A DNA stretch of 57,805 nt from Chloroflexota bacterium (GTDB lineage: Bacteria > Chloroflexota > Dehalococcoidia > Bin125): the NCBI GenBank assembly GCA_009838915.1, contig VXQT01000015.1, forward strand, positions 1 to 57,805, read 5' to 3'. Each line of letters opens with the position of its first letter. Position 1 is the stretch's first letter. Positions 1,681 through 25,559 of this stretch are shown here, one piece after another. The translations under genes and the position numbers were made by a program. The notes beneath the pieces were generated by a model. It saw only the letters and a program-made list of their open reading frames with translations. It was not told the DNA's origin and made no database searches.

Positions 1681-2657
1681 CAGTCGCCCACCGAGTTGGG
1701 CAGGGGCCGCCCCGCGAGCCCGGCGCGTAGGTTGGCGACCGCCATGTCGGCCATCTTGCCGCGCGTCGCCGTCGAGGCCGAGCCGATGTGCGGCAGGACC
1801 ACGACGTTGTCCATCTCCAGCAGCGGCGAGTCCATGGCCAACGGCTCCACCGCGGTCACGTCGAGTCCCGCGCCGCCGATCACTCCGTCTTGTAGCGCGC
1901 GTACGAGCGCTGATTCGTCCACGATTGGCCCGCGTGCGGTGTTGATCAGGATCGCGCTGGGCTTCATCAGTTCGAACGCGCGGGCGTTGATCAGGTTCCG
2001 CGTGTCGTTGGTCAGGGCGATGCTGACGCATACGAAATCGGACTGCGACAGTACCTCGTCGAAGGCGCGCTGTTCCGCGCCCACCACCGCCGATTCGTCC
2101 GGCCGCGGTGTGCGATTCCAGCAGAGCACGCGCATCCCGAATCCCTGAGCTCGGCGGGCAATGGCCTGCCCGATGGCGCCGAATCCGACGATGCCCAGGG
2201 TCGAGCCGAACACGTCGACGCCGGCCATCTGGGTCGGCGTCCAGGTCTGCCACATGCCGTCCTTGACGTACTCCGCCGCCTCCACGACTCGCCGCGCCGA
2301 GGCGAGGATCAGCGCCCAGGCCATGTCGGCGGTGGTTTCGGTCAGGACGCCGGGCGTGTTGCCGACGGGGATGCCCCGCGCCGCGCAGGCGGCCACATCG
2401 ACATTATCCACGCCGACCGCCATCTGCGAGACCACCTTGAGCTGCGCGCCCGCAGCATCGAGCACGGCCTCGTCAATCGTGTCGGTGATCAGGCAGAGCA
2501 GGCCGTCCATGCCGGCGACATGCTGCAGCAGTTCCTCGCGCGCAGGTGGGAAGTCGACGGGCCAGACGTCGAGATCGAACGCCGGGTCCTGGCGCAACTC
2601 GGCGAAGCCGGCGCCCGGCAGCGCTCGAGTCGCGAACACGCGATACGACGCGGACAT
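1680..2657 (-). CDS. D-2-hydroxyacid dehydrogenase (GyaR/SerA type)
   Basis: 325 aa, the usual length for NAD(P)-dependent D-2-hydroxyacid dehydrogenases such as glyoxylate/hydroxypyruvate reductase. A Rossmann motif, GIVGFGAIGQAIARR, sits near the middle. The catalytic Arg is in NTARGPIVDE, the Glu in the GLDVTAVEP stretch and the His in VLPHIGSAS. The start is preceded by a good GGGAGG ribosome-binding site and by a TATCTT hexamer about 30 nt upstream. First gene of the operon with the pyrE-like gene and the anchored coiled-coil gene. The exact 2-oxoacid substrate cannot be read from sequence. Confidence 0.9.
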   Translation of the reverse strand: MSASYRVFATRALPGAGFAELRQDPAFDLDVWPVDFPPAREELLQHVAGMDGLLCLITDTIDEAVLDAAGAQLKVVSQMAVGVDNVDVAACAARGIPVGNTPGVLTETTADMAWALILASARRVVEAAEYVKDGMWQTWTPTQMAGVDVFGSTLGIVGFGAIGQAIARRAQGFGMRVLCWNRTPRPDESAVVGAEQRAFDEVLSQSDFVCVSIALTNDTRNLINARAFELMKPSAILINTARGPIVDESALVRALQDGVIGGAGLDVTAVEPLAMDSPLLEMDNVVVLPHIGSASTATRGKMADMAVANLRAGLAGRPLPNSVGD

Positions 2658-2734
2658 CGACAGCCTCCCGATTCAGAGTCAAGATAATGCGAGCAACGGC
2701 GATTGACGATTCCGTCCTGTGAAGCGAGTTCCGC

Positions 2735-3154
2735 ATGAGATCGGTCGCGCTCTTGCTCGTGTTGCTGTCCGCGATCGCTCTGGCGGCCTGCGGCGGCGGA
2801 GAGCGTCTGACGCTCGAGCAGTACTCCGACTGGTGCACGGGCGGCATCGCCTCCGCCGCGTCGCTCATCGATCCTGAGCGCGTCACCTGGGGAGAGTTGG
2901 AAGAGCTTGCATCGCAGTCGGCCGAGGAGTTGCGGGCCGTCAATCCGCCGCGGGAACTGTCGGAGTTCCACCGCGCCAGCCTGAAGACGCTCGATTTCGT
3001 CGCCGAGGTCGCAGTCGAACAGGATCGGGACGAGCTGGCCAATCCGCTCGCCTTTGGTCTCGAAGCGATCGCCATCGCCACGCAACTGAGGCGGTCGGTA
3101 GACGCACTCTCGCCTGAGGTGCGGGCCTCACTCGGTGAGGCAGGATGCGTGTGA
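2735..3154 (+). CDS. Small lipoprotein
   Basis: 139 aa. The N-terminus is a clear lipoprotein signal peptide: basic start, hydrophobic core and lipobox LAAC, with the lipidated Cys near residue 19 followed by Gly-rich spacing. The mature part is acidic and helical, with no family that I recognise. It is divergent from the dehydrogenase at 1680-2657 and followed by a head-to-head pair of intergenic repeats. Predicted to sit on the outer face of the cytoplasmic membrane. Confidence 0.75.
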   Translation: MRSVALLLVLLSAIALAACGGGERLTLEQYSDWCTGGIASAASLIDPERVTWGELEELASQSAEELRAVNPPRELSEFHRASLKTLDFVAEVAVEQDRDELANPLAFGLEAIAIATQLRRSVDALSPEVRASLGEAGCV

Positions 3155-3155
3155 T

Positions 3156-3209
3156 CCCCTCTCCCCCCGCGCCAGCGGGGGGAGATGTCCCGTAGGGACA
3201 GAGGGGGGC
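3156..3209 (+). repeat. Intergenic double-hairpin repeat, copy R2
   Basis: Large hairpin CCCCCCGC-gcca-GCGGGGGG, then small hairpin TCCC-gta-GGGA, enclosed by CCCCTCT/AGAGGGG arms. It begins immediately after the lipoprotein stop and is head-to-head with R3. Confidence 0.9.
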
Positions 3210-3232
3210 ACGCCCGACGTCCCGCGCACGGA

Positions 3233-3281
3233 GCCCCCCTCTGCCTTCGGCATCTCCCCCCGCGCCAGCGGGGGGAGAGGG
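3233..3281 (-). repeat. Intergenic double-hairpin repeat, copy R3
   Basis: Inverted partner of R2, with a spacer of about 23 nt between them. Small hairpin TGCC-ttc-GGCA, then CCCCCCGC-gcca-GCGGGGGG. The end of the copy lies only a few bases from the stop codon of the gene at 3286-3669. Confidence 0.9.
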
Positions 3282-3285
3282 ATCT

Positions 3286-3669
3286 CTACAGCAGCCGGCG
3301 GATCAGCAGCAGGCCGATGGGGCCCAGGGTGAGGCCCAGCAGCCAGCCGAGTTGGGGCGGGCGGCCCTTGTGCGAGGCCATCGCCGCGCCGGCGAATCCC
3401 ATGCCCGCCCAGAGCGTCAGGATGAACAGCAGCAGCAGGGCCGCGCCGACGACGATCGTCACTGCCAGCCCCAGCGCCGCCGCCGCCAGACCCAGCGGGA
3501 TGCCGATCAGCCAGAGCAGGAAGCGCTCCAGCGGATTGCGGGTTCGACGATTGGCGCGCCGCGCCTGGTCCCGCGCGCTGCCGGCCCAGTGTTGACCGCG
3601 GCCCACCCAGACCGTGACCATGCGGCGGCCGTCGTGCCACTGCAGCGATTCGCCGTCTCGTCGGGACAT
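3286..3669 (-). CDS. Small integral membrane protein, unknown function
   Basis: 127 aa. A basic cytoplasmic N-terminus (about residues 1-45, rich in Arg) is followed by two long hydrophobic segments in about 46-92 and a third near the C-terminus (about 108-123). No family recognised. The start is fixed by a TAGCAT hexamer exactly 6 nt upstream of the ATG, which suggests a leaderless transcript. No Shine-Dalgarno sequence is visible. Confidence 0.7.
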   Translation of the reverse strand: MSRRDGESLQWHDGRRMVTVWVGRGQHWAGSARDQARRANRRTRNPLERFLLWLIGIPLGLAAAALGLAVTIVVGAALLLLFILTLWAGMGFAGAAMASHKGRPPQLGWLLGLTLGPIGLLLIRRLL

Positions 3670-3675
3670 ATCCCC

Positions 3676-3681
3676 ATGCTA
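3676..3681 (-). promoter_or_regulatory. -10-like hexamer TAGCAT, leaderless start
   Basis: TAGCAT on the minus strand ends 6 nt before the ATG at 3669. This matches the spacing seen at nine other starts in the window. No consensus -35 is apparent. Confidence 0.6.
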
Positions 3682-3698
3682 TGAGGATTCGTCGAGCG

Positions 3699-4277
3699 CT
3701 ACCTGTCTTGCTCGCGCGCGGCGACCTGGTCGATCCGCATCTGCCGCTGGTTCGCCTCCGTGCCGCCCTGGTACTGGGGCCGATAGTCCGACTGCCGTCC
3801 TTCGATCTGCGCCGTATGCATCCGATCGTGTCGGTAGAACGAGCGCAGCCATTGCATCAGGGTCAGCACACCAAAGCCCGGCGTGGAGGCGGTATGCGCG
3901 AACTCGTCCAGGGTCAGCGAGCGGATGTAATCGTTGGTCTTCGTCCGCTCGTCGATCAGCGCATCGAGCAGCTCGCGAACGGAGTGCTGAGGCGCGCGCT
4001 CGATTGGGATGGCGACCGGTTCGCCGCGGATGTCCGAGGCGTCGACGCCGTCCTCGGCCTGTCCGGCGCGGCACCAGGCGATGTAGCTGCGCTCCATCTC
4101 CCAGAGGTGAGCGAGCTGCTCCTTGGCCGTCCACTGCTCCTCGCCGACGGCGTCGACCGGCACACGGTTGGCGTCGTCCTCGTTCAAGCCCTCGGCGGCG
4201 GCGAGCAGTTTGCCGCGTTCGAGCGCCATCTTCGAGAGCAGGTCGTCCACGTCCTGCTGCGTGTATGTCTGCGCCAT
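3699..4277 (-). CDS. DinB-family protein (third of tandem trio)
   Basis: 192 aa with the DinB/DfsB four-helix-bundle pattern. A first His lies in QLAHLWEMERSY and two more in RHDRMHTAQIEGR; these three normally bind a divalent metal. DinB-like proteins include bacillithiol and mycothiol transferases and many uncharacterised members, so substrate is unknown. The ATG overlaps the TAA of the upstream DinB gene (TAATG), so the trio at 3699-5243 is one translationally coupled unit. It is longer than its two neighbours because of a C-terminal tail after the last His. Confidence 0.8.
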   Translation of the reverse strand: MAQTYTQQDVDDLLSKMALERGKLLAAAEGLNEDDANRVPVDAVGEEQWTAKEQLAHLWEMERSYIAWCRAGQAEDGVDASDIRGEPVAIPIERAPQHSVRELLDALIDERTKTNDYIRSLTLDEFAHTASTPGFGVLTLMQWLRSFYRHDRMHTAQIEGRQSDYRPQYQGGTEANQRQMRIDQVAAREQDR

Positions 4278-4759
4278 TACTCGTCTCCAGTCGTCGCCAG
4301 CGCCCGCCGGATCTGCCCCAGGTGGGCGCGGTCGTGTTCAATGTTCTTCTCGACCAGGATTGCGACCGAGTAGCGCTCGCGCTCCTCGTGCCGGCCCTCG
4401 CGCAACCAATCTTCGGCCGCGATCTGCTCGAGGATCGCCCCGCTCGACGCGCGCAAGGCAAAGAAGGTGGCGACCGACGGCTCGATCTCGCGGTCGTAGT
4501 GCAACCGCTCGGCGAACCGGCTTTCGCTGAACGGCACGATCAGAGGCGAGTCGTGGGCCAGCATCTGACGCAGGCGCATCGCGTCGGCGACCTCGTTGTC
4601 GGTCAGGTGATGCACGATCTGGCGCACCGACCACTCGCCGGGACTCTCTCGCGCTTCGAGCTGGTCCTCGGAGAGCTCGCCCAGCACCTGCTCGACCTCG
4701 AAGGTCGATTCGAGGTAGTCAACCAACAATTGGGGTCGCTCGCTGGGATGCTCGGGCAT
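4277..4759 (-). CDS. DinB-family protein (second of tandem trio)
   Basis: 160 aa starting MPEHPSERPQ. The open frame extends further upstream, but that part is the shadow of the previous gene. Metal-ligand His candidates are in QIVHHLTDNE and EHDRAHLGQI. The helix pattern matches the two flanking genes, so this is a tandem duplication. It lies 10 nt after the upstream DinB gene and overlaps the downstream one by one base. Probably cytosolic; reaction unknown. Confidence 0.8.
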   Translation of the reverse strand: MPEHPSERPQLLVDYLESTFEVEQVLGELSEDQLEARESPGEWSVRQIVHHLTDNEVADAMRLRQMLAHDSPLIVPFSESRFAERLHYDREIEPSVATFFALRASSGAILEQIAAEDWLREGRHEERERYSVAILVEKNIEHDRAHLGQIRRALATTGDE

Positions 4760-4769
4760 GGTCCCCGTC

Positions 4770-5243
4770 CTAGCAGGTGCCGGTGAGCGCGTAGCGGATC
4801 TGGTCGATGTGCTCGTCCACGTGGCGGACGCTGGCGGCGAGCCAGTCCTCGACGCTGCGCGAAGCGTTGCCGGGCATCGGACGCGGCTGGGTCCACTCGT
4901 CCTCGCTGAGCGCATCGAGGATCGACGCGGCCGACTCGACCAGCGCCTCAACCGTGCGCAGCGCCGGCGTCACGGGTCGCCTGTCGTTGCGCAAACGCTT
5001 CTGCATGATGTCGCCGTCGATCGGCCACATCTCGACCTCGATGTCGAGCAGCATCATGCGCAATCGCAGACCGGCCATGATCGCGACATCGGAGACGTGG
5101 TGCACGTTCTCGCGCGCAGTCCAGCCCGGGTCGGGCGGCGCGCCGTCAAGCTGCGCGATTGACGCGCCGGCGACCGACCCCTTGAGTCGGCTGGGGCCGT
5201 CGCGGTAGCGGAAGAGCAGTTCGGAGCGCTCGTCGGACGTCAT
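4770..5243 (-). CDS. DinB-family protein (first of tandem trio)
   Basis: 157 aa. His residues in ENVHHVSDVAI and RHVDEHIDQIRYAL occupy the DinB metal positions. The ATG overlaps the stop of the gene at 5240-5908 (ATGA), so the membrane-anchored gene and the three DinB genes form one operon. Similar length and helix order to the gene at 4277-4759 point to duplication. Function beyond metal-dependent DinB fold is not known. Confidence 0.8.
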   Translation of the reverse strand: MTSDERSELLFRYRDGPSRLKGSVAGASIAQLDGAPPDPGWTARENVHHVSDVAIMAGLRLRMMLLDIEVEMWPIDGDIMQKRLRNDRRPVTPALRTVEALVESAASILDALSEDEWTQPRPMPGNASRSVEDWLAASVRHVDEHIDQIRYALTGTC

Positions 5244-5908
5244 TCCAGCCGACCCTTGACCAACTCGGCCGCGCGCCGCACGTCGTCGTCGTCCAGCGCG
5301 CCCGACGGCTCCGAATCGCCGCGCACCACGGCCAGCACATCGCCCGAAGCCCAGCGCAACTCCAGCATCCGCTGGACGCCAGCGCCGTTCTCGCTGCGCG
5401 TCCACTCGCGGGCGAGTATCCCACCGCGCTCGCCCGCATCTTCAACGCTGACCTCCGCGTCGCTCGGGTCCAGCCGAGGCTCTTCGGCCAGCGCCGCCAG
5501 CGCCTGGTCGGCGGTCTCGTAGCGCGTCAACTCCAACTCGACCCGCCGGTGAGCGCGGTTGCGATAGACGGTCTGGCCGCAGACCCAGTCGAGAAACTCG
5601 CCCATCGAACGCGGGTCGCGGTAGCTCTCGCGGTAGCCGATCACGCGGCCCGACTCGTCGAGCTGCGCAATCGTCGCCTCGGGATTGTCGTCAGCCAGCG
5701 CAATCGCTTCCGAGGTCACCGCTTCCGCCGTCTGTGGAGACAGCCCGGCAGGCAAATCGGTGGTGCGCAATCCCGCAGCCCGCAGCGCCGACACGCCGTC
5801 AATCCCCAACGAGCGCCGCCGCTGGAAGGCCCGAACCATCGCCTGCACAACCGGCACGCCGACGACAAGCAGCAGGATCAAGATGCCAATGACCAGCTCG
5901 GTGGACAT
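5240..5908 (-). CDS. Single-span membrane-anchored protein, unknown function
   Basis: 222 aa. A strongly hydrophobic segment at residues about 5-25 anchors the protein, followed by an Arg-rich stop-transfer stretch and a soluble acidic domain. No family recognised. First gene of the operon that continues into the three DinB genes. The start is supported by a TAGCCT hexamer exactly 6 nt upstream (leaderless). Repeat R4 lies just behind that hexamer, where a -35 element would be. Confidence 0.75.
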   Translation of the reverse strand: MSTELVIGILILLLVVGVPVVQAMVRAFQRRRSLGIDGVSALRAAGLRTTDLPAGLSPQTAEAVTSEAIALADDNPEATIAQLDESGRVIGYRESYRDPRSMGEFLDWVCGQTVYRNRAHRRVELELTRYETADQALAALAEEPRLDPSDAEVSVEDAGERGGILAREWTRSENGAGVQRMLELRWASGDVLAVVRGDSEPSGALDDDDVRRAAELVKGRLE

Positions 5909-5914
5909 GGGCTC

Positions 5915-5920
5915 AGGCTA
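5915..5920 (-). promoter_or_regulatory. -10-like hexamer TAGCCT, leaderless start
   Basis: The minus-strand hexamer ends 6 nt before the ATG at 5908. Its upstream flank (plus-strand 5932 onward) is repeat R4. Confidence 0.65.
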
Positions 5921-5931
5921 CCGCAAGAGGA

Positions 5932-5980
5932 GCCCCCCTCTGCCTTCGGCATCTCCCCCCGCGGAGCGGGGGAAGAGGGG
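5932..5980 (-). repeat. Intergenic double-hairpin repeat, copy R4
   Basis: Small hairpin TGCC-ttc-GGCA, then CCCCCCGC-gga-GCGGGGG, with CCCCTCT/AGAGGGG arms. It abuts the promoter of the gene at 5240-5908. Confidence 0.85.
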
Positions 5981-6008
5981 AATGGGAGGTTGAACTGCTG
6001 AGGCTTCT

Positions 6009-6668
6009 TTACCCCAGCAACGCTGACATGGACACTCTCAAGTCCGACAAGTCATCCAACACAACATCAGCCTCATCCAGCTCGCCGGGCTGCGAGTAGC
6101 CGGTCTTCACCGCAACGACGCGGGCACCGATCGCATGTCCGGCTTCGATGTCGTGGCCGGTGTCGCCGATCACGACAACATCCGACCTGTCGCTGGAGTA
6201 CTGGCGCAGGCGTTCAAGGCCCGCCGCGAGCAGCTCGGTGCGATTCGGGTGGTCGTCGCCGAAGCCGCCGTCGAGGAAGTAGTCCCAGATGCCGAGTGGG
6301 GCGAGCTTGGCCTCGGCAGCGCGGCGGAAGTTGCCCGTGCCCAGTCCGAGCGTCACGTCTTCCTCGGCGAGCGCTTCCAGGAGCGGCCCGACGCCCGGGC
6401 AGAGTCGCGAGTCGCGCTCGACCAGCGCATCGCCCAGGTGCGGCACGTAGTGGTCGATGAAGCGCGCGAGATCGTCGGCCGAGCAGTCGCGACCCTGCCG
6501 AGCCAGCGCCGTCGGCACAATCCACGTATCGCTGCGGCCGGCGAAATTCATCCCGTCCAGCGCGTCGTCGATGTCCCAGAGTTGCTTGAAGGTGCGCGAC
6601 ATCGCCAGCGTCCCCGCACCCTGCGAGAGCGACAGCGTGCCGTCGATGTCGAACATGAGGATGGTCAT
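6009..6668 (-). CDS. HAD-superfamily phosphatase (phosphoglycolate phosphatase-like)
   Basis: 219 aa. Motif I is FDIDGTL near the N-terminus (nucleophile Asp and acid/base Asp), motif II lies in GLGTGN, and motif IV is VVVIGDTGHDIEAG, which supplies the Mg-binding acidic residues. A helical cap lies between motifs I and II. This pattern is typical of Gph/YqaB-like phosphatases that act on small phosphorylated metabolites. Start chosen at MTILMFDIDG. The frame opens 42 nt earlier, but that extension (MDSRLRGNDE) is only the translation of palindromic repeat P1. Monocistronic. Confidence 0.85.
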   Translation of the reverse strand: MTILMFDIDGTLSLSQGAGTLAMSRTFKQLWDIDDALDGMNFAGRSDTWIVPTALARQGRDCSADDLARFIDHYVPHLGDALVERDSRLCPGVGPLLEALAEEDVTLGLGTGNFRRAAEAKLAPLGIWDYFLDGGFGDDHPNRTELLAAGLERLRQYSSDRSDVVVIGDTGHDIEAGHAIGARVVAVKTGYSQPGELDEADVVLDDLSDLRVSMSALLG

Positions 6669-6683
6669 GACAGGTTGATTTTC

Positions 6684-6710
6684 GTCATTCCCGCGAAGGC
6701 GGGAATCCAT
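6684..6710 (+). repeat. Palindromic repeat P1
   Basis: Palindrome ATTCCCGC-gaag-GCGGGAAT with GTC...CCAT flanks. Inverted relative to P2, 102 nt away. Confidence 0.9.
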
Positions 6711-6811
6711 TCAGCACAACCATTGAGCAACAGGCAAGCATTGAGACCGGGCTGACCCGCAAGCTGGAAGAGGTGAACACCCATATGCACTGCCAACTGA
6801 CGTCTTCCTGG

Positions 6812-6839
6812 ATGGATTCCCGCCTTCGCGGGAATGACG
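6812..6839 (-). repeat. Palindromic repeat P2
   Basis: Inverted copy of P1 with the same loop (CTTC = reverse complement of GAAG). P1 and P2 bracket a non-coding segment of about 100 bp; the whole 6684-6839 block could be one small mobile or structured unit. Confidence 0.9.
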
Positions 6840-6872
6840 GATCAGCTCATGTCTTTGCATCCCGTTGGCCAG

Positions 6873-7448
6873 TCACTCAAACAGCGCGAAGTCCGACCAA
6901 CCGCCGCGCACTCGGAGCAGCAGGCCGGATGCATCGAGCGGGATGTCGTAGACCGCGACTACGGTGATCGTCAGTTGCGGCTGGAGAATGAGCGGCGGCG
7001 CGTAGGCGACCGTCGACGCGGCTCTCGCTGCGCCCAGCGAGAGCGCGGCGTCGGCAAGATAGGCGCGACCGTCGGTGGTCACCAGTTGCAGGCCGTCCAG
7101 CGGTAGCTCGACCGCTTGCTTGGAGCGGTTGCTCATCGTCAGCGTGACCGACGCGAAGCGCTGGGCCGGGTTGCGCCAGATGCCCTCGGCGCGGATCTGA
7201 TCGGGGAAGGCGATGCCGACAATCGCGACCTCGACCGGCCCGACCAGCTCCGAGTGACCCAGCTCAATCGCATCGGTGCGCAGCGCGTCGGGCGAGTCGG
7301 TCAGCTCCACGGCGGCGGGCTGGGCGTCGTCACCGCCGCCGGTCAGTTCGTCGAATCCGCCCGACACGAACAGGTAGACGATCACGACCACCACCACGAT
7401 CAGCACCAGCACCGCGTAGCGCTGCGTGCCGCTCATACCGCTCAACAT
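6873..7448 (-). CDS. Membrane-anchored beta-rich protein (DUF4352-like)
   Basis: 191 aa. One very hydrophobic segment (about residues 11-30) is followed by a Gly/Asp linker and a beta-rich extracytoplasmic domain. The pattern of conserved hydrophobic strands with SNRSKQAVELP resembles DUF4352/telokin-like immunoprotective folds. That family link is weak. An alternative start at 7436 (MSGTQRYA) has slightly better upstream purines; both keep the membrane span. The rhodanese gene upstream ends 39 nt before this start, so co-transcription is likely. Confidence 0.65.
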   Translation of the reverse strand: MLSGMSGTQRYAVLVLIVVVVVIVYLFVSGGFDELTGGGDDAQPAAVELTDSPDALRTDAIELGHSELVGPVEVAIVGIAFPDQIRAEGIWRNPAQRFASVTLTMSNRSKQAVELPLDGLQLVTTDGRAYLADAALSLGAARAASTVAYAPPLILQPQLTITVVAVYDIPLDASGLLLRVRGGWSDFALFE

Positions 7449-7487
7449 GGGATGCGACCGCTCGTCGGGGCCACCGAGGCGCGCACG

Positions 7488-7832
7488 CTACTCAGGATGC
7501 TCGATCGGCAGGCCGGCGGCGATCCAGGCGTCGGTGCCGCCCTCGACGTTGTAGAGGTCGCTGAAACCGAGCGCCGCCGCGAACTCGCAGGCGACCGCCG
7601 AACGCTGTCCCTTGGCGCAGATGAACATCACCGGCTGGTCCTTGCCGCCCGCGATCTGCTCCAACTCGTCGGCGCGGGTCATCACCGACATGTGCGGCAT
7701 CAGCGGCGCACCGGCGGCGTGGCCGTTGGCATACTCGTCCAGCTCGCGCGTGTCGATCAGGGTCACGCCGGCCTGTCGTTTCTCCTCCGCCTCCTCCACC
7801 GAGATTCGCTGAAACGGTTCCTGCTGCGCCAT
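7488..7832 (-). CDS. Single-domain rhodanese
   Basis: 114 aa. One complete rhodanese domain: LIDTRELDEYANGHAAGA supplies the substrate-side signature, and the active-site loop ICAKGQRS places the catalytic Cys at residue 72. Such single-domain proteins (GlpE/PspE type) carry sulfane sulfur on that Cys. The start is supported by AAAGG about 8 nt upstream, and a TACGAT hexamer lies about 40 nt upstream of the ATG. Cytosolic, no signal peptide. Confidence 0.9.
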   Translation of the reverse strand: MAQQEPFQRISVEEAEEKRQAGVTLIDTRELDEYANGHAAGAPLMPHMSVMTRADELEQIAGGKDQPVMFICAKGQRSAVACEFAAALGFSDLYNVEGGTDAWIAAGLPIEHPE

Positions 7833-7901
7833 CGTGGGACCTTTCGGATCGGCTGCTCACGCCGTGATCTGCATCGTATCACCGCAACCCGCGCCCATCT
7901 C

Positions 7902-7929
7902 CGTCATTCCCGCGCAGGCGGGAATCCAT
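7902..7929 (+). repeat. Palindromic repeat P3
   Basis: ATTCCCGC-gcag-GCGGGAAT with GTC...CCAT flanks, direct orientation with P4 and P5. Confidence 0.9.
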
Positions 7930-7992
7930 CCGGGACCAACATCGCGCCTTCCATCCGGCGGCTCACCTCAGGTCATTCCCGCGACCCTTCAC

Positions 7993-8020
7993 CGTCATTC
8001 CCGCGCAGGCGGGAATCCAT
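7993..8020 (+). repeat. Palindromic repeat P4
   Basis: Same palindrome and loop (gcag) as P3, about 90 nt further on. Confidence 0.9.
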
Positions 8021-8088
8021 TCAGGAACACGTCTACACTCGCCTCTCCGCCCGCGCACCAACTCCGTCACTCCCTCGCCATCCCACTC

Positions 8089-8116
8089 CGTCATTCCCGC
8101 GCAGGCGGGAATCCAT
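8089..8116 (+). repeat. Palindromic repeat P5
   Basis: Same palindrome as P3 and P4, spacing again just under 100 nt. It is the last copy before the GIY-YIG gene. Confidence 0.9.
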
Positions 8117-8157
8117 CCAGGATCGCGTCTGCATTCGCCTCCTACCTCACGTGACTC

Positions 8158-8163
8158 TAGGCT
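8158..8163 (+). promoter_or_regulatory. -10-like hexamer TAGGCT, leaderless start
   Basis: Ends 7 nt before the ATG at 8171. No Shine-Dalgarno sequence in between. Confidence 0.6.
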
Positions 8164-8170
8164 GCACGCG

Positions 8171-8464
8171 ATGCGACGTCGCGAACCCGCCGTGTACATC
8201 ATCACCAACAAGCCCAAAGGCACGCTGTACATCGGTGTCACATCCAATCTGCCTCAGCGCATCTGGACTCACAAGCAGCGCCTCGTGGAAGGATTCGCCA
8301 AGCGTTACGGACTGGATCAGCTGGTCTGGTACGAGTATCACGACAACATGGAGCAAGCGATCCTGAAAGAAAAGCAGTTGAAGAAGTGGGAGCGGCCGTG
8401 GAAGTTTCGGCTCATCTTCGAGTCGAATCCGACGTGGAGGGATCTGTTCGAGGACTTGGCCTGA
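8171..8464 (+). CDS. GIY-YIG nuclease (UPF0213/YhbQ-like)
   Basis: 97 aa, a single GIY-YIG domain. The signature is VYI (8-10) and YIG (20-22), with the family Arg at about 30 (LPQRIWTH), His at 34 and acidic residues in ILKEKQLKKW. This compact family cuts DNA through a metal-dependent single active site. The gene is enclosed by palindromic repeats, three direct copies upstream (P3-P5) and one inverted copy downstream (P6), and has its own leaderless promoter. Association of small GIY-YIG proteins with such palindromes suggests, by analogy with REP-associated RAYT transposases, a role in spreading or processing the repeats; this is inference. Confidence 0.9.
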   Translation: MRRREPAVYIITNKPKGTLYIGVTSNLPQRIWTHKQRLVEGFAKRYGLDQLVWYEYHDNMEQAILKEKQLKKWERPWKFRLIFESNPTWRDLFEDLA

Positions 8465-8493
8465 GGATGTCGTCCAGCGCGGTGTTGGTCCTG

Positions 8494-8522
8494 GATGGAT
8501 TCCCGCCTGCGCGGGAATGACG
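8494..8522 (-). repeat. Palindromic repeat P6
   Basis: Inverted copy of P3-P5 located 30 nt after the GIY-YIG stop. Decayed half-copies follow to about 8590. Confidence 0.9.
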
Positions 8523-8607
8523 GTGAAGGGGCGCGGGAGTGACGGAGTGGGCGGTGGGAATGACGGAGGCGGCGCGGGAGCTGACGGAGCAGGGGGAAGC
8601 AGCGCGG

Positions 8608-8613
8608 TAGCAT
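8608..8613 (+). promoter_or_regulatory. -10-like hexamer TAGCAT upstream of acs
   Basis: Gives a predicted leader of about 35 nt before the acs ATG at 8656. No clear -35. Confidence 0.4.
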
Positions 8614-8655
8614 CTGCGGTATGAGACTGACTCCGAAGCAGATGAGGATGCCGAC

Positions 8656-10638
<1,983 letters not shown>

Positions 10639-17922: not shown

Positions 17923-20900
17923 GTGAGCGCTACCGACCCGCATGACACGCCGCCCGGCCTGCTTGCAGGACTGGGATCGGCTGTGCGCGACGCGCTGCGG
18001 CCGTTTGCCGATCAAGCGATGCTGGGTGTCCCCGACGCGGCCAAGCCGTCCGTAATCGCCGCGCTGGCTTCGGACCACGCCGGGCCGGTGCTAATCCTGA
18101 CCGCAACGCCGGCGTCCGCCGCCGACCTCGCCGATGCGCTCCCGCTGTGGATGGACGCCGGCGCCCGGAACAGACTGCTGCAGTTTCCCGCCCGCGAGAC
18201 CGCGCCCTATGAGCGCCAGCGCCCCGCGCCCGACCTGGTCGAGGCGCGGCTGACCGCCGTTGAGTCGCTGCGCGACGCGGCGCCGATCATCGTCGCCGAC
18301 GCCGACGGCGCGGCGCAGCGGACGGTCTCGGCGGCGTCCGCGCCGCTGGCGGTGACGCAGGGCGCGACCTTGCGCCTCGTCGACCTGGTCCGCTCGCTCG
18401 ACTCGAACGGTTACAGGCGCGAGCGGATTGTCGTGGAACCGGGAGCCTTCGCCGTGCGCGGCGGCATCGTCGACCTGTGGCCGCCGGCCGACGACGCGCC
18501 GATTCGGCTGGAGCTGTTCGGCGACGAGGTCGAGTCGATCCGGCGATTCGACCCTCGCACCCAACGATCGTCCGAGACGATCGAGTCGTTCGCTCTGCGA
18601 TCGGCCCGCGAGTGGAGCCGTTCTGCAGAATCTCAACTGCTTCTCGACCAGTTGCTTGAGTCGCTGGATGGCTGTCCCGCAGCAGAGATCGCCGAGTCCG
18701 AGCAGAGCGCCGAGGCCGCAGCGCTCTCGCTCGACATCGAGCTGCTCCGCGCCGGCGGCGAGCCGTCGCGTCCCGACTTCTGGACGCAGTTTCTCGCTCC
18801 AAGCACGATCTTCGACCATCTCCCGCCTGACGGCTTGATCATCCTTGACGAGGCGCATGACCTCTCGGCGCGGCTGGGGGAACGCGACCAGCGCGCGACG
18901 CACGCCCGTGAGGAGCTGGAGCGCGGCGGTCGGATCCCGCGCGGCCTACAGCACCCGTGGCTTACATGCGAAGAAGTGCAATCGCGGCTCGATCATGCGA
19001 CTCAGATGGTGCGCTCGCTGTCCAGACTCGCCGGCGGCGACCAGCGACTGCCGTTCCGCTCGACTCCAAGACTGGCAGGCAAGCTGACCCAGCTCTTCGA
19101 GTCGCTCCGCGAAGCGCAGGGCAAGGGATCAACCGTCCTGGTCTCACTCCAGGAGGCGCGACTGTCGGAGCTGATGCATGACCTGGGACTGCCGCTGGCC
19201 CGCCTTGAAGCCGAGTCGCCACCCAACCCGTCCGCGATCAGCGTCGGACGAGCGGCGATTGGCGAAGGATGGCAGCTCGACGACCCGCAGACCGGGGAAC
19301 GAGTCGTCACGCTGATCAGTGACACCGAGATCTTCGGATTCGAACGACAGCGTCGCCGCCGGCCGCTGCGCACGCGCCAGTCCGCTGAGCACGACTCCCA
19401 CCTGTTGGAAACGCTCAAGCGAGGCGACTTCGTCGTACACGTCGACAGCGGGATTGGCCGATTCGAGGGCGTCGTGCAGCAACGGATCGGGGGACGTGAG
19501 GGTGAATACATCGACATCCGCTTCGCCCAGGGTGACCGGCTGCTGGTGCCGACCGACAAGCTGGATCGGGTCCAGCCGTACGTCGGTCCGTCGGATGCGC
19601 CGCCCACGCTGACTCGGCTGGGCACCGGCCAATGGCAGCGGGCCAAAGCCCGGGTGCGCGGCGCCGTCGCGGACATTGCCGACGAGCTGCTCGAGTTGCA
19701 CGCTGCACGCGAGACCCAGCCCGGCCTCGCGATCGAACCCGACACACCCTGGCAGATCGAACTGGAGGCGTCGTTTCCATTCATCGAGACGCCCGACCAG
19801 CACCGCGCAATCGAGGAAGTACGCCGAGAGCAGGAGGCGGCCAGACCGATGGATCGGCTGATCGTCGGCGATGTCGGCTATGGCAAGACCGAGGTTGCAA
19901 TCCGAGCCGCGTTCAAGGCCGTGATGTCGGGTCACCAGGTCGCCGTACTGGTGCCCACGACGGTGCTCGCCCAGCAGCACTTCGACACCTTCCGTCAGCG
20001 GCTGGCGGCGATGCAGGTCCGCGTCGACATGCTCTCGCGACTGCGCACTGGCCACGAACAGCAGCTCACGGTCGAGGGACTGAAGTCGGGCGCGGTCGAC
20101 ATCGTGATCGGCACGCACCGGCTGCTGCAGCAGGACATCGGCTTCAAGAGCCTCGGTCTGTTGGTGATCGACGAGGAACAGCGCTTCGGCGTCGAACACA
20201 AGGAACGGCTCAAGAAACTGCGAAGTGAAGTCGATGTGCTCACACTCTCGGCGACGCCGATCCCGCGCTCGCTGCACCAGGCCGTGACCGGCATCCGCGA
20301 TATGTCGACGATCGCCACGCCGCCGGAGGAGCGCCTGCCGATCACGACCTACGTGATGGAACGCGACGACAGTGTGATCCGCGAGGCGATTCTGCGGGAA
20401 CTGGACCGCGGCGGGCAAGTCTACTTCCTGCACAACGAGGTGCGGACGATTGATGGCGAGGCGCTCGAGCTACAGCGGCTCGTGCCGGAGGCGAACATCC
20501 TCGTCGCGCACGGCCAGATGCCGGCCAACCTGCTGCGACGGCACATGGAAGAGTTCACCAAGGCCGAAGCTGATGTACTGGTCTGCTCGACGATTATCGA
20601 GTCGGGCGTCGACATTCCGCGCGTGAACACGATCATCATCGACCGCGCCGAGCGCCTCGGGCTGGCCCAGATGTACCAGTTGCGCGGCCGCGTGGGACGC
20701 TCCAGCGTCCGAGCGTTCGCCTACCTGATGACGGAGCCGTACCGCTCACTCAGCGAGGTCGCGCAGCGCCGGCTGGCCACGATCATGGAGGCGGACGACC
20801 TGGGCGCGGGCTTCCAGATCGCGCTCAAGGACCTCGAGATCCGCGGGGCTGGCAATCTGCTCGGCGCGCAGCAGTCGGGACACATCGGCGCGGTCGGCTT

Positions 20901-21420
20901 CACCCTCTTCACCCAACTGCTGGGCGAGGCGGTCGAGCGTGCCAGGTCGAAGCGATCCGGACAGCGCGCGGCCAGTCCGCGCCAGGGCACGCGGGTCTCG
21001 ATCGATCTCGCGGTGCCGAGTTTCCTGCCCGAGTCCTACGTCGACGATATGGGTCTGCGCATGTCGCTCTATCAGCGGTTGGCAGCCGCCGCGTCGCCGA
21101 AGTCAGTCGACAAACTCGGTCGCGAGCTGGAGGATCGCTTCGGCCCGCTGCCGCTGCCGGCGCGCAACCTGCTCGGGGCGCTAAGGCTTAAAGTGCTCGC
21201 TTCACGAATTGGCGCCGAGTCGATTCAGTCCGAGTCCGATCGAGTTGTGGTCCGCCTTGCCCCCGGCCTCCGCTTCAGCGACGCCCAGCGCCGAATCGCC
21301 GTCCCGCGCCAGATCCAGATCGGCCCCACCCAGCTCCGCTATGCCCCTTCGAGACGGCTCCCCGATTCGGACTGGGAATCCGCGCTGTCGGACGCATTGG
21401 CGAGACTGTCGGAGACGTAA
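17923..21420 (+). CDS. mfd: Transcription-repair coupling factor
   Basis: 1165 aa, normal length for Mfd, with a GTG start. Mfd pushes stalled RNA polymerase off lesions and recruits UvrA. The N-terminal UvrB-like module contains QFPARETAPYER. The CarD-like RNA-polymerase-interacting domain starts near residue 502 (GDFVVHVDSGIGRFEG). The RecG-like motor carries Walker A GDVGYGKTE near 648, the DEEQ box near 749 (VIDEEQRFG) and the second motor lobe with ESGVDIPRVNT and QLRGRVGRSS. The C-terminal TRCF domain follows from about 1010. All motor motifs are intact. A horizontally acquired two-gene unit begins 40 nt downstream. Confidence 0.97.
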   Translation: MSATDPHDTPPGLLAGLGSAVRDALRPFADQAMLGVPDAAKPSVIAALASDHAGPVLILTATPASAADLADALPLWMDAGARNRLLQFPARETAPYERQRPAPDLVEARLTAVESLRDAAPIIVADADGAAQRTVSAASAPLAVTQGATLRLVDLVRSLDSNGYRRERIVVEPGAFAVRGGIVDLWPPADDAPIRLELFGDEVESIRRFDPRTQRSSETIESFALRSAREWSRSAESQLLLDQLLESLDGCPAAEIAESEQSAEAAALSLDIELLRAGGEPSRPDFWTQFLAPSTIFDHLPPDGLIILDEAHDLSARLGERDQRATHAREELERGGRIPRGLQHPWLTCEEVQSRLDHATQMVRSLSRLAGGDQRLPFRSTPRLAGKLTQLFESLREAQGKGSTVLVSLQEARLSELMHDLGLPLARLEAESPPNPSAISVGRAAIGEGWQLDDPQTGERVVTLISDTEIFGFERQRRRRPLRTRQSAEHDSHLLETLKRGDFVVHVDSGIGRFEGVVQQRIGGREGEYIDIRFAQGDRLLVPTDKLDRVQPYVGPSDAPPTLTRLGTGQWQRAKARVRGAVADIADELLELHAARETQPGLAIEPDTPWQIELEASFPFIETPDQHRAIEEVRREQEAARPMDRLIVGDVGYGKTEVAIRAAFKAVMSGHQVAVLVPTTVLAQQHFDTFRQRLAAMQVRVDMLSRLRTGHEQQLTVEGLKSGAVDIVIGTHRLLQQDIGFKSLGLLVIDEEQRFGVEHKERLKKLRSEVDVLTLSATPIPRSLHQAVTGIRDMSTIATPPEERLPITTYVMERDDSVIREAILRELDRGGQVYFLHNEVRTIDGEALELQRLVPEANILVAHGQMPANLLRRHMEEFTKAEADVLVCSTIIESGVDIPRVNTIIIDRAERLGLAQMYQLRGRVGRSSVRAFAYLMTEPYRSLSEVAQRRLATIMEADDLGAGFQIALKDLEIRGAGNLLGAQQSGHIGAVGFTLFTQLLGEAVERARSKRSGQRAASPRQGTRVSIDLAVPSFLPESYVDDMGLRMSLYQRLAAAASPKSVDKLGRELEDRFGPLPLPARNLLGALRLKVLASRIGAESIQSESDRVVVRLAPGLRFSDAQRRIAVPRQIQIGPTQLRYAPSRRLPDSDWESALSDALARLSET

Positions 21421-21447
21421 GCCCTGGATCATACCTGCTGGTGCGAG

Positions 21448-21453
21448 TAGCTT
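21448..21453 (+). promoter_or_regulatory. -10-like hexamer TAGCTT, leaderless start
   Basis: Ends 6 nt before the ATG at 21460; gives the two-gene GHKL unit its own promoter in the mfd downstream region. Confidence 0.55.
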
Positions 21454-21459
21454 CCGGGC

Positions 21460-22032
21460 ATGACTGGTCAGACCGACCAACAACCCCGTCGACTGACCAA
21501 CTGGGAGATAGCTGTGCTCGTGCTTGCAGATTTGGGCGGAGCACACACATCACAGCACACCGAGGATATAGCCGCCAAGTGCTACGAGTTAGAATCTCAG
21601 CGGTTCCGCTGGAAGAAGTACGACTTCCCCAGCTTGGATGCGGTTAAGCAGGCCCTAAGCGACGCACGTCGCGACCGGCATGGCGGCCTGATTAGCGGTT
21701 CAGCGCGAACTGACCTTTGGCGCCTCACCCCAGCCGGTGTGACTTGGGCAGAGCAGCATCGAAGACGCGGCTTGACTGAGGCCGGTCGGTTACGCCTCGA
21801 GGATCAGAGGGCGCTCGATCAGTTCATCGAACATCCTTCATTCTTGAGTTGGCAATCGAGCGAGAGTCCGCCCGGCCGCCATGATGCGGCGATGTTACTG
21901 CACCTCTTGCCTGATGCGCCGGTTCGCGCGATTACCAGTCGCGTCGATCTACTGCGAACAATTGCGCGCCAGGCAGGTCGCGATGATGTAGAAAGGTATC
22001 TCCAATGGCTTCAAGACGGCGTCGACCCGTAA
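21460..22032 (+). CDS. Small winged-helix-like partner of GHKL ATPase
   Basis: 190 aa. Residues about 12-110 look like an Mrr-N-type winged-helix module: LTNWEIAVLVLADLGG, then a helix ending in RFRWKKYDFPSLDAVKQALSDARR, then GGLISGSARTDLWRLTPAGV as the wing. The rest is helical with no motif I recognise. It overlaps the ATPase gene by 28 nt, so the two are translationally coupled. Lower GC and codon choice separate both from mfd and from the exchanger that follow on either side. Plausible role: DNA or target recognition for the ATPase partner. The family assignment of this module is tentative. Confidence 0.7.
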   Translation: MTGQTDQQPRRLTNWEIAVLVLADLGGAHTSQHTEDIAAKCYELESQRFRWKKYDFPSLDAVKQALSDARRDRHGGLISGSARTDLWRLTPAGVTWAEQHRRRGLTEAGRLRLEDQRALDQFIEHPSFLSWQSSESPPGRHDAAMLLHLLPDAPVRAITSRVDLLRTIARQAGRDDVERYLQWLQDGVDP

Positions 22033-24188
22033 GTGTCGAGTACACCGCGCGTGCACAACGCCAGGACGCGGAGAACGCGATGGGATCAGATCCTATTCGC
22101 GCAATCATTGAACTTGTCACTAACGCCGACGATGCTTACGCCCGAGATGGGTACCAAGGCGATGCCAGCATCCTGATCCGAGTACAACGGAGGCGCGAAA
22201 GGCCACATGTAATCGAGATTCTCGATAGGGCAAGCGGGATGTCCACCGAACAGGTAGAGCAACGCCTTGCGCGCGCTGGCGGTCGAAACAGTGGATTCGA
22301 AGCAGGGCAAGACGTACGAGGTCTGCTCGGCCGCGGAGCAAAGGATGTTGCCCACTTCGGACCAGTCCAGTGGGTCACGGTCCGTGATGAGCTGCGGACA
22401 ACATTCTCCCTAGATCTCACCAGCCCCGACGATGCCACTGGATGGATCGAGGGTCCGGAGCGCCCTGCAGATAAACGCTCAAGACGTTCCGGCACTGCTG
22501 TCACTATGGAAGTACAGAAGCGCTTCAGTCTCCCCATGCCTGACAAGCTACGTGGCAGTCTGACCCGCCACTACGCGCTGCGGCCAATTCTGCGGAACCG
22601 GAAAGGGAGGGATGTCAAACTAGACACCGGGAGCGGGGCCAAGAAGCTAACGTATCACGAGCCTTCAGGTGATCTGCTGGAGGACTCGACAGTTGTGCCG
22701 ATCGATGGCTACGCCGGTCAAACGGCTACAATCACTCTCAGTAGAGCACCGGAATCGATCGACGATGGTGAAGACCGCGAGTACTGGCATCACTCCTTGT
22801 TGATTCAATCAGGTTCGGCTGCATACGACGTCTTCAGTGCTGGCAGATATCGCTCTGGCCACCACGCTAGTCTGCTAGGCCACTTCTTCGGCACGGTCGA
22901 TGTGCCTGGCATTAGCGAGCTTATTCGCGAACATGATCGACTTGAAGAGCTAAGTGAGGAACCTCCGTCGAGCAACCCGATCCGCCTGATCAAGCGAGAC
23001 AGGTCAGGCCTCGTGGCGCGACGTGACCATCCGTTCGTCGATGCTCTGTACAAGGCGGTTGAGCAAGTTCTTGAGCCACACGTCGAGCGTCTACGGAAGG
23101 AACTGCAGTCTGCTGCTGGTCAGAACGTCGGCGAAGAGCTTCAACGTCGACTCAACGAAGCTGGGCGCGTCATTTCCAAGTGTCTGCGAGACGAGGTTGC
23201 GTCAGAAGGCGGCGGACAAGATGGCTCCAACCCGCCACTCGGGCTCTCAATGGTCCCTTCGACGCGCATCGTCCCACCAAGCACCAGAGCATCAGTGACG
23301 GTGCGATATCGATCTCGAGATGCACAGCAGACCCCAGTTGCTAGAGTCTCCTTTCGGGAGTTCGATCAGGAGGACCCTCGTACCGGTACGTTGGCGTTGG
23401 AACAGCGGACGAATGGGTACTTCAGCAAGTCGATCAGCCTTGAGCCTCGCCCTGACGGATCGACGACCGGACTAACTGTGTCTCTAGATAACGACGCTGT
23501 TTCGGGAGAAGTGCGATGGGAAGAAACTGATGCGGACTCTGTGGATCGACTTCAGTTTGAGCACGCGCACAACACGGTCGGAGAGGGTGGTTTGCGCCGC
23601 CTCCGACTACTCGCCCCCTTCGATCTCATCGAGGACGAAGACGATCCGCCGACAGTGACGATTTCCGGGGCATCGAGCATCACCATGCCAGAGAGCCCCA
23701 CTGTGTTTCGCGCTGATGTCAGGCGCCAATGTCTCATGAGTGTGATCACAGTGCGCGGACAAGGACTAGGTTCCAAGGCGAAGCTCACGGCTCTTGCTGC
23801 TGGCGAACCGGCCGATGCGCACATCGAGGTCCGCTCTGCGGGGGTTGCAGGATTCGTTCCAAAGATCGAAGAGCATGACAATGACCTGCGTGCGTGGATG
23901 GTTCCCGAAGAAGGTAAAATCGTACTGAACGCCAAACACCCTGCGCTGTCCCGCTACCTTGGTCACAGTCGCGACGGCTGGCCTGGCCAGAACTCCGCGC
24001 CCTTCAAGAGCATGCTTGCCGAGCTAATCTCCGCAACCGCTGTGCGTAGCGTTCTAACTGCACGGCATCGCCAACCGCTCGACGTGAACGATCTGTTGCA
24101 TGAGTACGAGACCCACTTTTCGAAACTGGTACCTCAGCTCCATCGTGCTCTGGTCACGGAAGCAGAGCTAAGGGTGGCCTCTGCTTGA
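22005..24188 (+). CDS. GHKL/HSP90-type ATPase, putative defence protein
   Basis: 727 aa behind AAAGG. The N-terminal Bergerat ATP-binding fold is clear: N-box ELVTNADDA (E36, N40, D42), Mg/adenine motif DRASGM (D74-M79) and lid GLLGRGAKD (106-114). This places it with HSP90/MutL/MORC-like ATPases, not histidine kinases; no phospho-acceptor or transducer domain is seen. The middle (about 130-400) is the expected transducer-like region, followed by beta-rich segments (about 430-600) and a helical C-terminus with FKSMLAELISATAV. MORC-related GHKL ATPases are known from bacterial restriction-like conflict loci, which is the basis for suggesting defence. No nuclease domain is visible in either protein. 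Confidence 0.8.
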   Translation: MASRRRRPVSVEYTARAQRQDAENAMGSDPIRAIIELVTNADDAYARDGYQGDASILIRVQRRRERPHVIEILDRASGMSTEQVEQRLARAGGRNSGFEAGQDVRGLLGRGAKDVAHFGPVQWVTVRDELRTTFSLDLTSPDDATGWIEGPERPADKRSRRSGTAVTMEVQKRFSLPMPDKLRGSLTRHYALRPILRNRKGRDVKLDTGSGAKKLTYHEPSGDLLEDSTVVPIDGYAGQTATITLSRAPESIDDGEDREYWHHSLLIQSGSAAYDVFSAGRYRSGHHASLLGHFFGTVDVPGISELIREHDRLEELSEEPPSSNPIRLIKRDRSGLVARRDHPFVDALYKAVEQVLEPHVERLRKELQSAAGQNVGEELQRRLNEAGRVISKCLRDEVASEGGGQDGSNPPLGLSMVPSTRIVPPSTRASVTVRYRSRDAQQTPVARVSFREFDQEDPRTGTLALEQRTNGYFSKSISLEPRPDGSTTGLTVSLDNDAVSGEVRWEETDADSVDRLQFEHAHNTVGEGGLRRLRLLAPFDLIEDEDDPPTVTISGASSITMPESPTVFRADVRRQCLMSVITVRGQGLGSKAKLTALAAGEPADAHIEVRSAGVAGFVPKIEEHDNDLRAWMVPEEGKIVLNAKHPALSRYLGHSRDGWPGQNSAPFKSMLAELISATAVRSVLTARHRQPLDVNDLLHEYETHFSKLVPQLHRALVTEAELRVASA

Positions 24189-24218
24189 CAATAGGGCGAC
24201 CGTTGTCCGATTGCCGGA

Positions 24219-24224
24219 TACGCT
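24219..24224 (+). promoter_or_regulatory. -10-like hexamer TACGCT, leaderless start
   Basis: Ends 6 nt before the GTG at 24231. A TTGACA at 24185 is 28 nt away, too far to be its -35. Confidence 0.65.
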
Positions 24225-24230
24225 ATCCAT

Positions 24231-25559
24231 GTGAATCTCCGAACTCCCTGGACTCTGCTGATCCTGGCTGTGCTGGCGGGGATTCCGTCGCTGGTCTTTC
24301 GGCTGGGTGGGATTGAACTCGATACGTACCCGGAGGTGGCGATCTCCGGTTTGGCGATCCTGTCGGCGGCGTTCCTGATCTCCTCCGGCGCCGAGGCGTC
24401 GCAGTACGACATCCCGGCGGCGCTGTCGGTCGCCCTGGTGGCGTTCATCGCCGTGCTGCCCGAGTACGCGGTCGACCTGCTCTTGGCCTACGAGGCGGGG
24501 CAATACGCGTCTGACCCGGTGGCGTTCTCGGGGTTCTCGGAGAAGGCCAACCTGGCGCTGGCGAATATGACCGGCGCCAACCGCCTGTTGCTCGGCGTGG
24601 GCTGGGCGACCGTGATCTTCCTCTTCGCCTGGAAGGCGGCGGGCCCGCGCGAGCTGATCAAATCCACTGCGCGTCACGCCTGGCGAGATCTGCGCGGTCG
24701 CCCCAACGACGGCACCGAGCCCGAACTGACGCTGCCGCGCGGGATCGCGCTCGACGTCGGCATTCTGGTCGTCGCGACGCTGTATTCGTTCATCATCGTC
24801 GCCAAGGGACGCATCGCGCTCGAGGACACGATCCTGCTCGGCGTGCTGTTCCTTTGGTACGTGATCCGTCTCGCCCGCGCGCCGGTCCACGAGCCGGACC
24901 TGGAGGGCCCCGCAGAAGCGATCGGACGACTGCCGGTCTGGCCGCGCCGTGCCGCCGTGCTCTTCTTCATCGTCTATTCGGCCATTGTGATCGGGCTCGC
25001 CGCCGAGCCGTTCGTGCACGGCCTCGAATACGTCGGCCGCGATGTCGGCATCGGCGAGTTCTTCGTGATCCAGTGGATTGCGCCGCTCGCATCGGAGTCT
25101 CCCGAGTTCCTGGCCGCGCTCTACCTGGTCTGGCGGGGCTCGGCCGGGATGGGCGTTAACATGCTCATCTCCAGCAAGGTCAACCAGTGGACGCTGCTGA
25201 TCGCGTCGGTGCCGATTGCCTACATCGCCGGCGGCGGCGCGCTGTCGGGGATCACGTCGAGCGACACGCAGGTGGCGGAGGTCTTCATCACCGCCGCGCA
25301 GTCGGTCTTCGGCGTGATGCTGATCATCGACCGCCAGCTCACGGCGCGGGCCGGCTTCGCATTGCTCGGTGTCTTCCTGGCGCAGTTGATCAGCCAGTTC
25401 TTCTTCCAGGAAAACAACTTGATTCGCTGGATCTTCGGGGTCATCTATCTTGGCTGTGCGGCGGCGATGCTGCCGAGCCATTGGCGGCTCTTCCCGCCTA
25501 CGCTGCGCGAGGCCTTTCAACGGCCCGGCGCGACTCCTGAGGAAGGAACTCACGTATGA
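24231..25559 (+). CDS. CaCA-family cation/proton exchanger
   Basis: 442 aa with a GTG start placed by the leaderless promoter. About eleven hydrophobic spans. Two inverted alpha-repeats of the Ca2+/cation antiporter superfamily are visible: FIAVLPEYAVDLLLAY...ANMTGANRLLLGVGW in the first half and WIAPLASESPEFLAALYLVW...NMLISSKVNQWTLLIA in the second, each with the acidic residue that binds the ion. A charged loop separates the halves. It likely exchanges Na+ or Ca2+ against H+ or Na+ across the cytoplasmic membrane; the exact ion is unknown. The stop overlaps the next ATG (ATGA). Confidence 0.85.
   Translation: MNLRTPWTLLILAVLAGIPSLVFRLGGIELDTYPEVAISGLAILSAAFLISSGAEASQYDIPAALSVALVAFIAVLPEYAVDLLLAYEAGQYASDPVAFSGFSEKANLALANMTGANRLLLGVGWATVIFLFAWKAAGPRELIKSTARHAWRDLRGRPNDGTEPELTLPRGIALDVGILVVATLYSFIIVAKGRIALEDTILLGVLFLWYVIRLARAPVHEPDLEGPAEAIGRLPVWPRRAAVLFFIVYSAIVIGLAAEPFVHGLEYVGRDVGIGEFFVIQWIAPLASESPEFLAALYLVWRGSAGMGVNMLISSKVNQWTLLIASVPIAYIAGGGALSGITSSDTQVAEVFITAAQSVFGVMLIIDRQLTARAGFALLGVFLAQLISQFFFQENNLIRWIFGVIYLGCAAAMLPSHWRLFPPTLREAFQRPGATPEEGTHV

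Follow-up and report, generated by a model that had tools for sequence, protein, structure and literature searches.

In silico analysis of a Chloroflexota DNA stretch of 57,805 nucleotides (analyzed as a whole and here named the window) revealed a two-gene cassette, inserted between mfd and a gene for an exchanger-like membrane protein, that encodes a small winged-helix protein and a GHKL ATPase. The cassette is probably a hitherto unnamed DNA-conflict module that lacks its own nuclease. The reading that we favor, with a probability of roughly 0.55, is that of a laterally moving, paraMORC-like DNA-conflict module tied to DNA modification, and from these analyses a defense role of the pair is plausible. 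A reading made from the sequence only had proposed the locus as a candidate undescribed system; no match to a Pfam, NCBIfam, or PADLOC system and none in the searchable literature was obtained, and the family looks undescribed.

Both genes lie on the forward strand, and the 28-nt overlap claimed for them is exact (Table 1). The start of the ATPase gene is supported by the residues M1-A2, which are common to two diverged relatives. Also in line with the sequence-only reading, the GC content of the insert (58.2%) is below the window mean of 65.8%; no other stretch of this length in the window has a lower GC content, and GC3 amounts to 58 to 61% in the pair versus 82 to 87% in the flanking genes. 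The claim that the cassette has its own −10 element had to be dropped: between positions 21200 and 24400, no promoter-like site was found on the forward strand and one chance match on the reverse strand.

Table 1. Features of the two-gene cassette and its flanks (window positions)
Feature	Position	Strand	Basis
Small partner (190 aa): N-terminal winged helix and C-terminal helical domain	21460..22032	+	ORF; AF2 pLDDT 90; 55 ATPase-paired homologs
Winged-helix domain of small partner (residues 12-108)	21493..21783	+	VIA-align Z 8-10, residues ~5-108
C-terminal helical domain of small partner (residues 113-188)	21796..22023	+	AF2 helices 113-124, 126-134, 140-146, 155-171, 175-188
GHKL ATPase, 727 aa	22005..24188	+	ORF; HATPase_c_3; AF2 pLDDT 87
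28-nt overlap of small-partner and ATPase genes	22005..22032	.	ORF coordinates
GHKL ATP-binding domain (~residues 15-175)	22047..22529	+	Invariant columns, 71 homologs; structure match
E36/N40 motif; D74; also G109-R-G111	22110-22124 (E36/N40); 22224-22226 (D74)		Within GHKL domain
S5-like transducer domain (~residues 180-315)	22542..22949	+	Structural match over residues 1-373
Long helical hairpin/coiled coil (residues 343-400)	23031..23204	+	AF2 helices 343-370, 377-400
Beta-rich region (residues 413-622), tandem beta-sandwich-like	23241..23870	+	AF2 strands; alignment
C-terminal alpha/beta and helical domain (residues 623-727), R629 invariant	23871..24185	+	Alignments; AF2
Left junction, 3' of mfd stop	21421..21459	.	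60-bp empty sites in G011, G002, G013, G010, G005
Right junction	24189..24230	.	GATTGCCGGATACGCTATCC similar to 3' part of 60-bp empty site
mfd, flanking housekeeping gene outside module	17923..21420	+	ORF
Exchanger-like membrane protein gene, flanking, outside module	24231..25559	+	ORF; present in 13/15 genus genomes

Predicted architecture of the two proteins

The Bergerat ATP site of the large protein, described as intact from the sequence, is indeed so, with E36, N40, D42, D43, D74, G78, R105, and G111 invariant among 71 homologs. Assignment to the GHKL superfamily rests on the conservation of E36, N40, D74, G78, and G109-R110-G111 and on a Pfam match to HATPase_c_3 that lies only just above the cut-off. 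Altogether, 15 residues of the ATPase are invariant in this set, 14 of them in its N-terminal module and the exception being R629. Matches to kinase, topoisomerase, or MutL families were not obtained, in agreement with the reported lack of kinase, topoisomerase, and mismatch-repair domains. In the AF2 model, residues 1 to 373 match the GHKL and middle/S5 modules of Hsp90, MORC2, MORC3, and SMCHD1 (Z 20 to 23), the Hsp90 match being confined to these residues when the whole protein was used for the structure search; a PDB profile search with the ATPase family returned marginal GHKL (Hsp90) matches only. Behind the GHKL and S5 domains, a helical hairpin leads in the model to a beta-rich region and from there to a helical tail, so that the C-terminal half is beta-rich, as had been suggested, and then helical. 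In the alignment, the beta-rich region is missing or shorter in a subfamily of ~630-aa ATPases. No nuclease signature was recognized in either protein, as claimed before, and the C-terminal half of the ATPase shows neither a conserved acidic/lysine set among the 71 homologs nor a match to a nuclease family in Pfam, NCBIfam, or PADLOC.

The small protein is predicted by AF2 to consist of a winged helix and a helical domain. Its winged helix aligned with winged-helix proteins in VIA-align and is similar in structure to MarR, MntR, and F-93 type regulators. Of the "Mrr-N-like winged helix" proposed earlier, the fold was thus recovered in the model, whereas a sequence match to Mrr_N was not: a Pfam search up to E = 1 gave no family, Mrr_N included. 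An Mrr_N protein is encoded just 5' of the pair in a related locus (L033/L040). A known housekeeping family, for which a check had been proposed, was not matched by the small protein, and a PDB profile search with its family returned nothing. A MukE/MukF-like (kleisin-associated) identity was set aside, and no such relation is claimed, since the Foldseek matches were high-rmsd only; the regulator matches in the same search were high-rmsd as well. Winged helices are known to read 6mA in the type IV restriction enzymes DpnI and HhiV4I, and the winged helix of such enzymes has also been reported beside NTPase modules (PMC11037411). The likeness to the small protein lies in a winged helix used in restriction. 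In DpnI and HhiV4I, however, it is fused to a nuclease, whereas in the cassette it is a separate protein, for which the reading of 6mA is conjectural.

Insertion site, spread, and pairing

The pair was found in 3 of the 15 species of the window's genus, with 36 to 45% identity, and vertical single-copy inheritance, named beforehand as a point to be checked, does not describe its occurrence in these genomes. The gap between mfd and the exchanger gene measures 60 bp in five sister genomes (G011, G002, G013, G010, and G005) and 134 to 137 bp in G001 and G004. In G008, G009, and G014, the junction extends over 1.12 to 1.14 kb and holds another, unrelated two-gene unit, encoding a protein of 217 to 221 aa and a Ymh protein (PF09509), and the end of this unit is visible in G007. 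Ymh is a family of HEPN proteins, for which fusions to paraMORCs in restriction-modification loci have been reported (PMC3710099). The Ymh/HEPN protein of the alternative cassette (loci L018, L024, L027, and L128) has a length of 138 to 145 aa. From the empty sites and the alternative unit, it follows that the window pair is an insertion at a variable site; the mfd-exchanger junction is a small site at which pairs of the conflict type are exchanged.

G003 also carries the pair at this junction. Compared with the window, its Mfd protein shows 91% amino acid identity, its small protein 39%, and its large protein 36%, and in G001 the pair is located elsewhere, between unrelated genes. Slow vertical divergence is hard to fit to this pattern, and replacement or repeated arrival fits it. 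Along the identity profile, mfd is closest to G003 and then to G010, and the exchanger gene to G009 and G011, which hints that mfd alleles may have recombined with the cassette.

When used as a single query, the window ATPase found no relatives outside the genus. In a class sample of 393 genomes, the alignment identified 10 carriers and a larger profile 12, two of them partial; a scan of bacteria and archaea with one genome per species yielded 172 relatives, and 80 of these were retained. The view of the two genes as a unit gained support from this set: a small partner accompanies the ATPase in 55 of 81 distinct loci, directly upstream in 54 and directly downstream in one. The spacing in the 54 loci ranges from −107 to +20 nt, an overlap or a short gap being the rule. 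ATPase loci without a winged-helix partner (26 of 84) include a branch that is frequent among Gemmatimonadota, Rhodothermota, and Acidobacteriota, and an HMM search over all ORFs flanking the ATPase found no hidden partner in this "solo" branch. Many partnerless copies (e.g., L052, L055, L065, L068, and L076) are found in RHO, CAR, and COS bins, names that suggest sponge-symbiont projects. In a tree of 71 ATPases, 34 phylum changes were counted for 23 phyla, with archaea placed inside bacterial groups. Searches of plasmids, phages, and IMG/VR with several queries yielded no relatives, so that carriage by a recognizable plasmid or phage is unsupported.

Not all members of the family act as mobile defense genes, as indicated by one Anaerolineae genus (that of G397) in which an ATPase of the ~630-aa branch is retained in 40 of 57 genomes, mostly at one place; the downstream sequence is common to 24 of the 30 loci examined there. 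In the same genus (loci L184 and L193), the small partner is enlarged to 317 to 430 aa. The retention would also suit an accessory DNA-repair or chromosome-maintenance clamp, in which a structure in the DNA would be recognized by the winged helix and the GHKL protein would serve as a MutL-like matchmaker, a reading that we consider unlikely. PolX (HHH, polymerase beta thumb, and PHP) is encoded 3' of the pair in an operon-like arrangement in the Dehalococcoidia loci L094 and L117 and near the pair in the Anaerolineae genus, and the window pair happens to stand 3' of mfd. However, mfd is the insertion site only, as seen from the sister genomes without the pair and from its other location in G001, and among the 145 near genes PolX was matched only twice, in sister taxa. 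Furthermore, the spread is patchy outside that Anaerolineae genus, and replacement of the proteins at a single site is seen in the window's genus.

We regard as quite improbable that the cassette is an abortive or toxic module, in which the ATPase (or the pair) would become toxic on a trigger, with the winged-helix protein as sensor or antitoxin, and cause cell suicide upon infection. The overlapping arrangement of a small upstream and a large downstream gene would suit such a module, and the alternative cassette at the junction ends in a HEPN protein. In addition, the ATPase genes of G001 (TAG) and G003 (TGA), i.e., two of the three genus members, contain one in-frame stop each, as would be expected if the gene were costly and selection on it relaxed. 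On the other hand, no toxic enzymatic domain was recognized, the ATPase site is the sole strictly conserved site, and the stops may represent decay or assembly error, the genomes being metagenome-derived. They lie at differing places, near 2623-2628 in L002 and near 223-237 in L003.

Gene neighborhoods and restriction-modification

Restriction-modification is the strongest functional lead for the pair, some relatives of which share an operon with DNA methyltransferase genes. A DNA methyltransferase gene adjoins it in L054 (overlapping, upstream), L085, L093, L103, and L116 and also in L192. In family tallies that are based on mechanical ORF calls and involve no formal test, N6_N4 methylases made up 6 of 145 near genes versus at most 1 of 145 far genes, GmrSD (2), Fic (3), and PIN (3) were also among the near genes, the far genes were housekeeping-like, and the PADLOC families matched were 253 near versus 112 far. 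Most pairs lie outside defense islands, and the window pair lies between housekeeping genes. In the window, G001, and G003, no gene next to the pair encodes a methyltransferase or a nuclease; as neither a methyltransferase nor an endonuclease gene stands beside it, a restriction-modification system proper was rejected for the window. Several N6/N4-type methyltransferase matches were found on other contigs of the window's genome, which makes an action in trans possible, if conjectural.

Homologs of the small protein are also encoded in loci that lack this ATPase family. In L152, its homolog (E about 1e-57) forms one run (5711-8680) with a DNA methyltransferase and a TdeIII endonuclease, so that in this TdeIII-type restriction-modification locus the latter two replace the GHKL protein. 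A small protein with a methyltransferase and a HARE-HTH protein is encoded in L153, and small proteins with a second GHKL family are found in L154, L191, and L192. This makes the winged-helix protein a shared component of restriction-type loci. HARE-HTH, which has been proposed as a reader of modified DNA (PMC10853773), stands beside the small protein in L077/L190, L153, and L188. The L191 locus (1850-8179) is an apparent five-gene operon for a 303-aa unknown protein, an M.Eco57I-like methylase, a sigma-r4-like protein, the winged-helix protein, and a divergent GHKL ATPase. Related pairs in L154, L185, and L191 come with sigma-r4-like genes, which, together with the regulator-like winged helix, would suit a regulatory pair of a winged-helix transcription factor and a GHKL co-regulator that silence specific loci, but we judge this very unlikely, as the wide patchy spread, the methyltransferase and endonuclease partners, and the site-specific replacement are unlike a host regulator.

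Several further arrangements were observed. A 94-aa gene alongside the L152 run encodes an N terminus similar, by eye, to that of a gene beside the GHKL pair in L034/L098. One bin (OM1 bin76) holds two ATPase copies (L047:1859-5237 and L062:8646-12172), in which an upstream DndB-family gene replaces the winged-helix gene. A gene for 71 to 84 aa with the motif RFKRLASxRTN...LGNxSN and no Pfam match is present in eight loci (including L045, L053, L060, L074, and L086), mostly just upstream of the small partner and further off in L079. Directly 3' of the ATPase, L094, L101, L108, and L117 carry an acidic gene of 70 to 90 aa (FLDSK...DYYEWLKDNFKSFFNH). A single ORF in L156 (6388-7245) joins a short methyltransferase-like start to a GHKL-family C-terminal part and may be a fusion or a deletion scar. 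RecQ as a partner (G327 and G235) was set aside as the common location of two close relatives.

Relation to known GHKL proteins and proposed mechanism

With its predicted order of an N-terminal GHKL domain followed by S5, the ATPase has the architecture of a paraMORC in the broad sense and not that of a MORC. The MORC motif GhXhhpXXRhl was found after residue 180 in 0 of 71 homologs, and its absence from the S5 domain rules out membership in the MORC family. paraMORC3/GHKL-Shedu was rejected, as no DUF4263 restriction-fold nuclease was matched in Pfam, NCBIfam, or PADLOC, and so was paraMORC4, as no TIR match was obtained in either protein or adjacent to them in the window. An ExxxH pair, as conserved toward the C-terminal end of S5 in paraMORC2, is not among the invariant columns of our alignment, which comprises members of the cassette family. 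Helicases and endonucleases, the characteristic neighbors of paraMORCs, were not seen at the window, and a methyltransferase adjoins a minority of the relatives.

Prokaryotic MORC and paraMORC1 to -5 GHKL ATPases were described in restriction-modification loci by Iyer in 2008 (PMC2292703). The cassette family resembles them in its N-terminal GHKL and S5-like domains with C-terminal extensions, its sporadic occurrence across bacteria and archaea, and the DNA methyltransferase neighbors in part of the family. In contrast to them, the cassette ATPase has no MORC motif and no recognized nuclease or TIR tail and possesses a long beta-rich region, and the constant partner here is a small winged-helix protein, not an SFII helicase or nuclease. 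A further relative in architecture is VcSduA, an anti-phage Shedu protein with a GHKL N-terminal domain (paraMORC3), in which a GHKL ATPase is likewise joined to a clamp-like middle domain and control of an effector has been proposed (PMC12137116). VcSduA, however, is a single gene with a DUF4263 nuclease, whereas the cassette proteins match no such domain. The pair is thus best classified as paraMORC-like, taking the term broadly, rather than as a MORC or Shedu protein, and, since MORC and paraMORC proteins in restriction loci have been known since 2008 (PMC2292703), the idea extends an existing category and does not found another.

The fold of the ATPase module is also like that of eukaryotic MORC2/3 and SMCHD1 (Z 21 to 22 over ~310 residues, 11 to 17% identity), but the cassette lacks CW, hinge, and chromatin-reader domains and has a separate winged-helix partner. 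MORC2/3 and SMCHD1 clamp DNA under the control of ATP and silence it without cleavage. For the pair, we infer a defense activity with a clamp or switch mechanism, in which the winged-helix protein would bind DNA, read its sequence or methylation state, and load the ATPase onto it. The N-terminal domains of the ATPase would dimerize upon ATP binding and close the clamp round the bound DNA, and its coiled coil and beta-rich arms could hold or bridge duplexes. Such a clamp might block, compact, or mark non-self DNA or license an unlinked nuclease. Where a linked methyltransferase is present, host methylation would protect self; the window pair would act alone or with host methyltransferases encoded elsewhere, and a nuclease or methyltransferase may perhaps act in trans.

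A bolder version, which we put forward as a tentative and rather doubtful one, is a nuclease-free immunity in which a winged-helix modification reader would load a MORC/SMCHD1-like clamp and foreign DNA would be silenced or compacted, not cut. In eukaryotes, genes and transposons are silenced by MORC and SMCHD1; for their prokaryotic relatives, a link to restriction loci has been known since 2008, and, to our knowledge, little biochemical work exists. If true, the cassette would be a prokaryotic counterpart of MORC silencing. The small two-gene unit, from a family missed by current defense-gene libraries, offers a compact test of GHKL clamps blocking foreign DNA without cutting.
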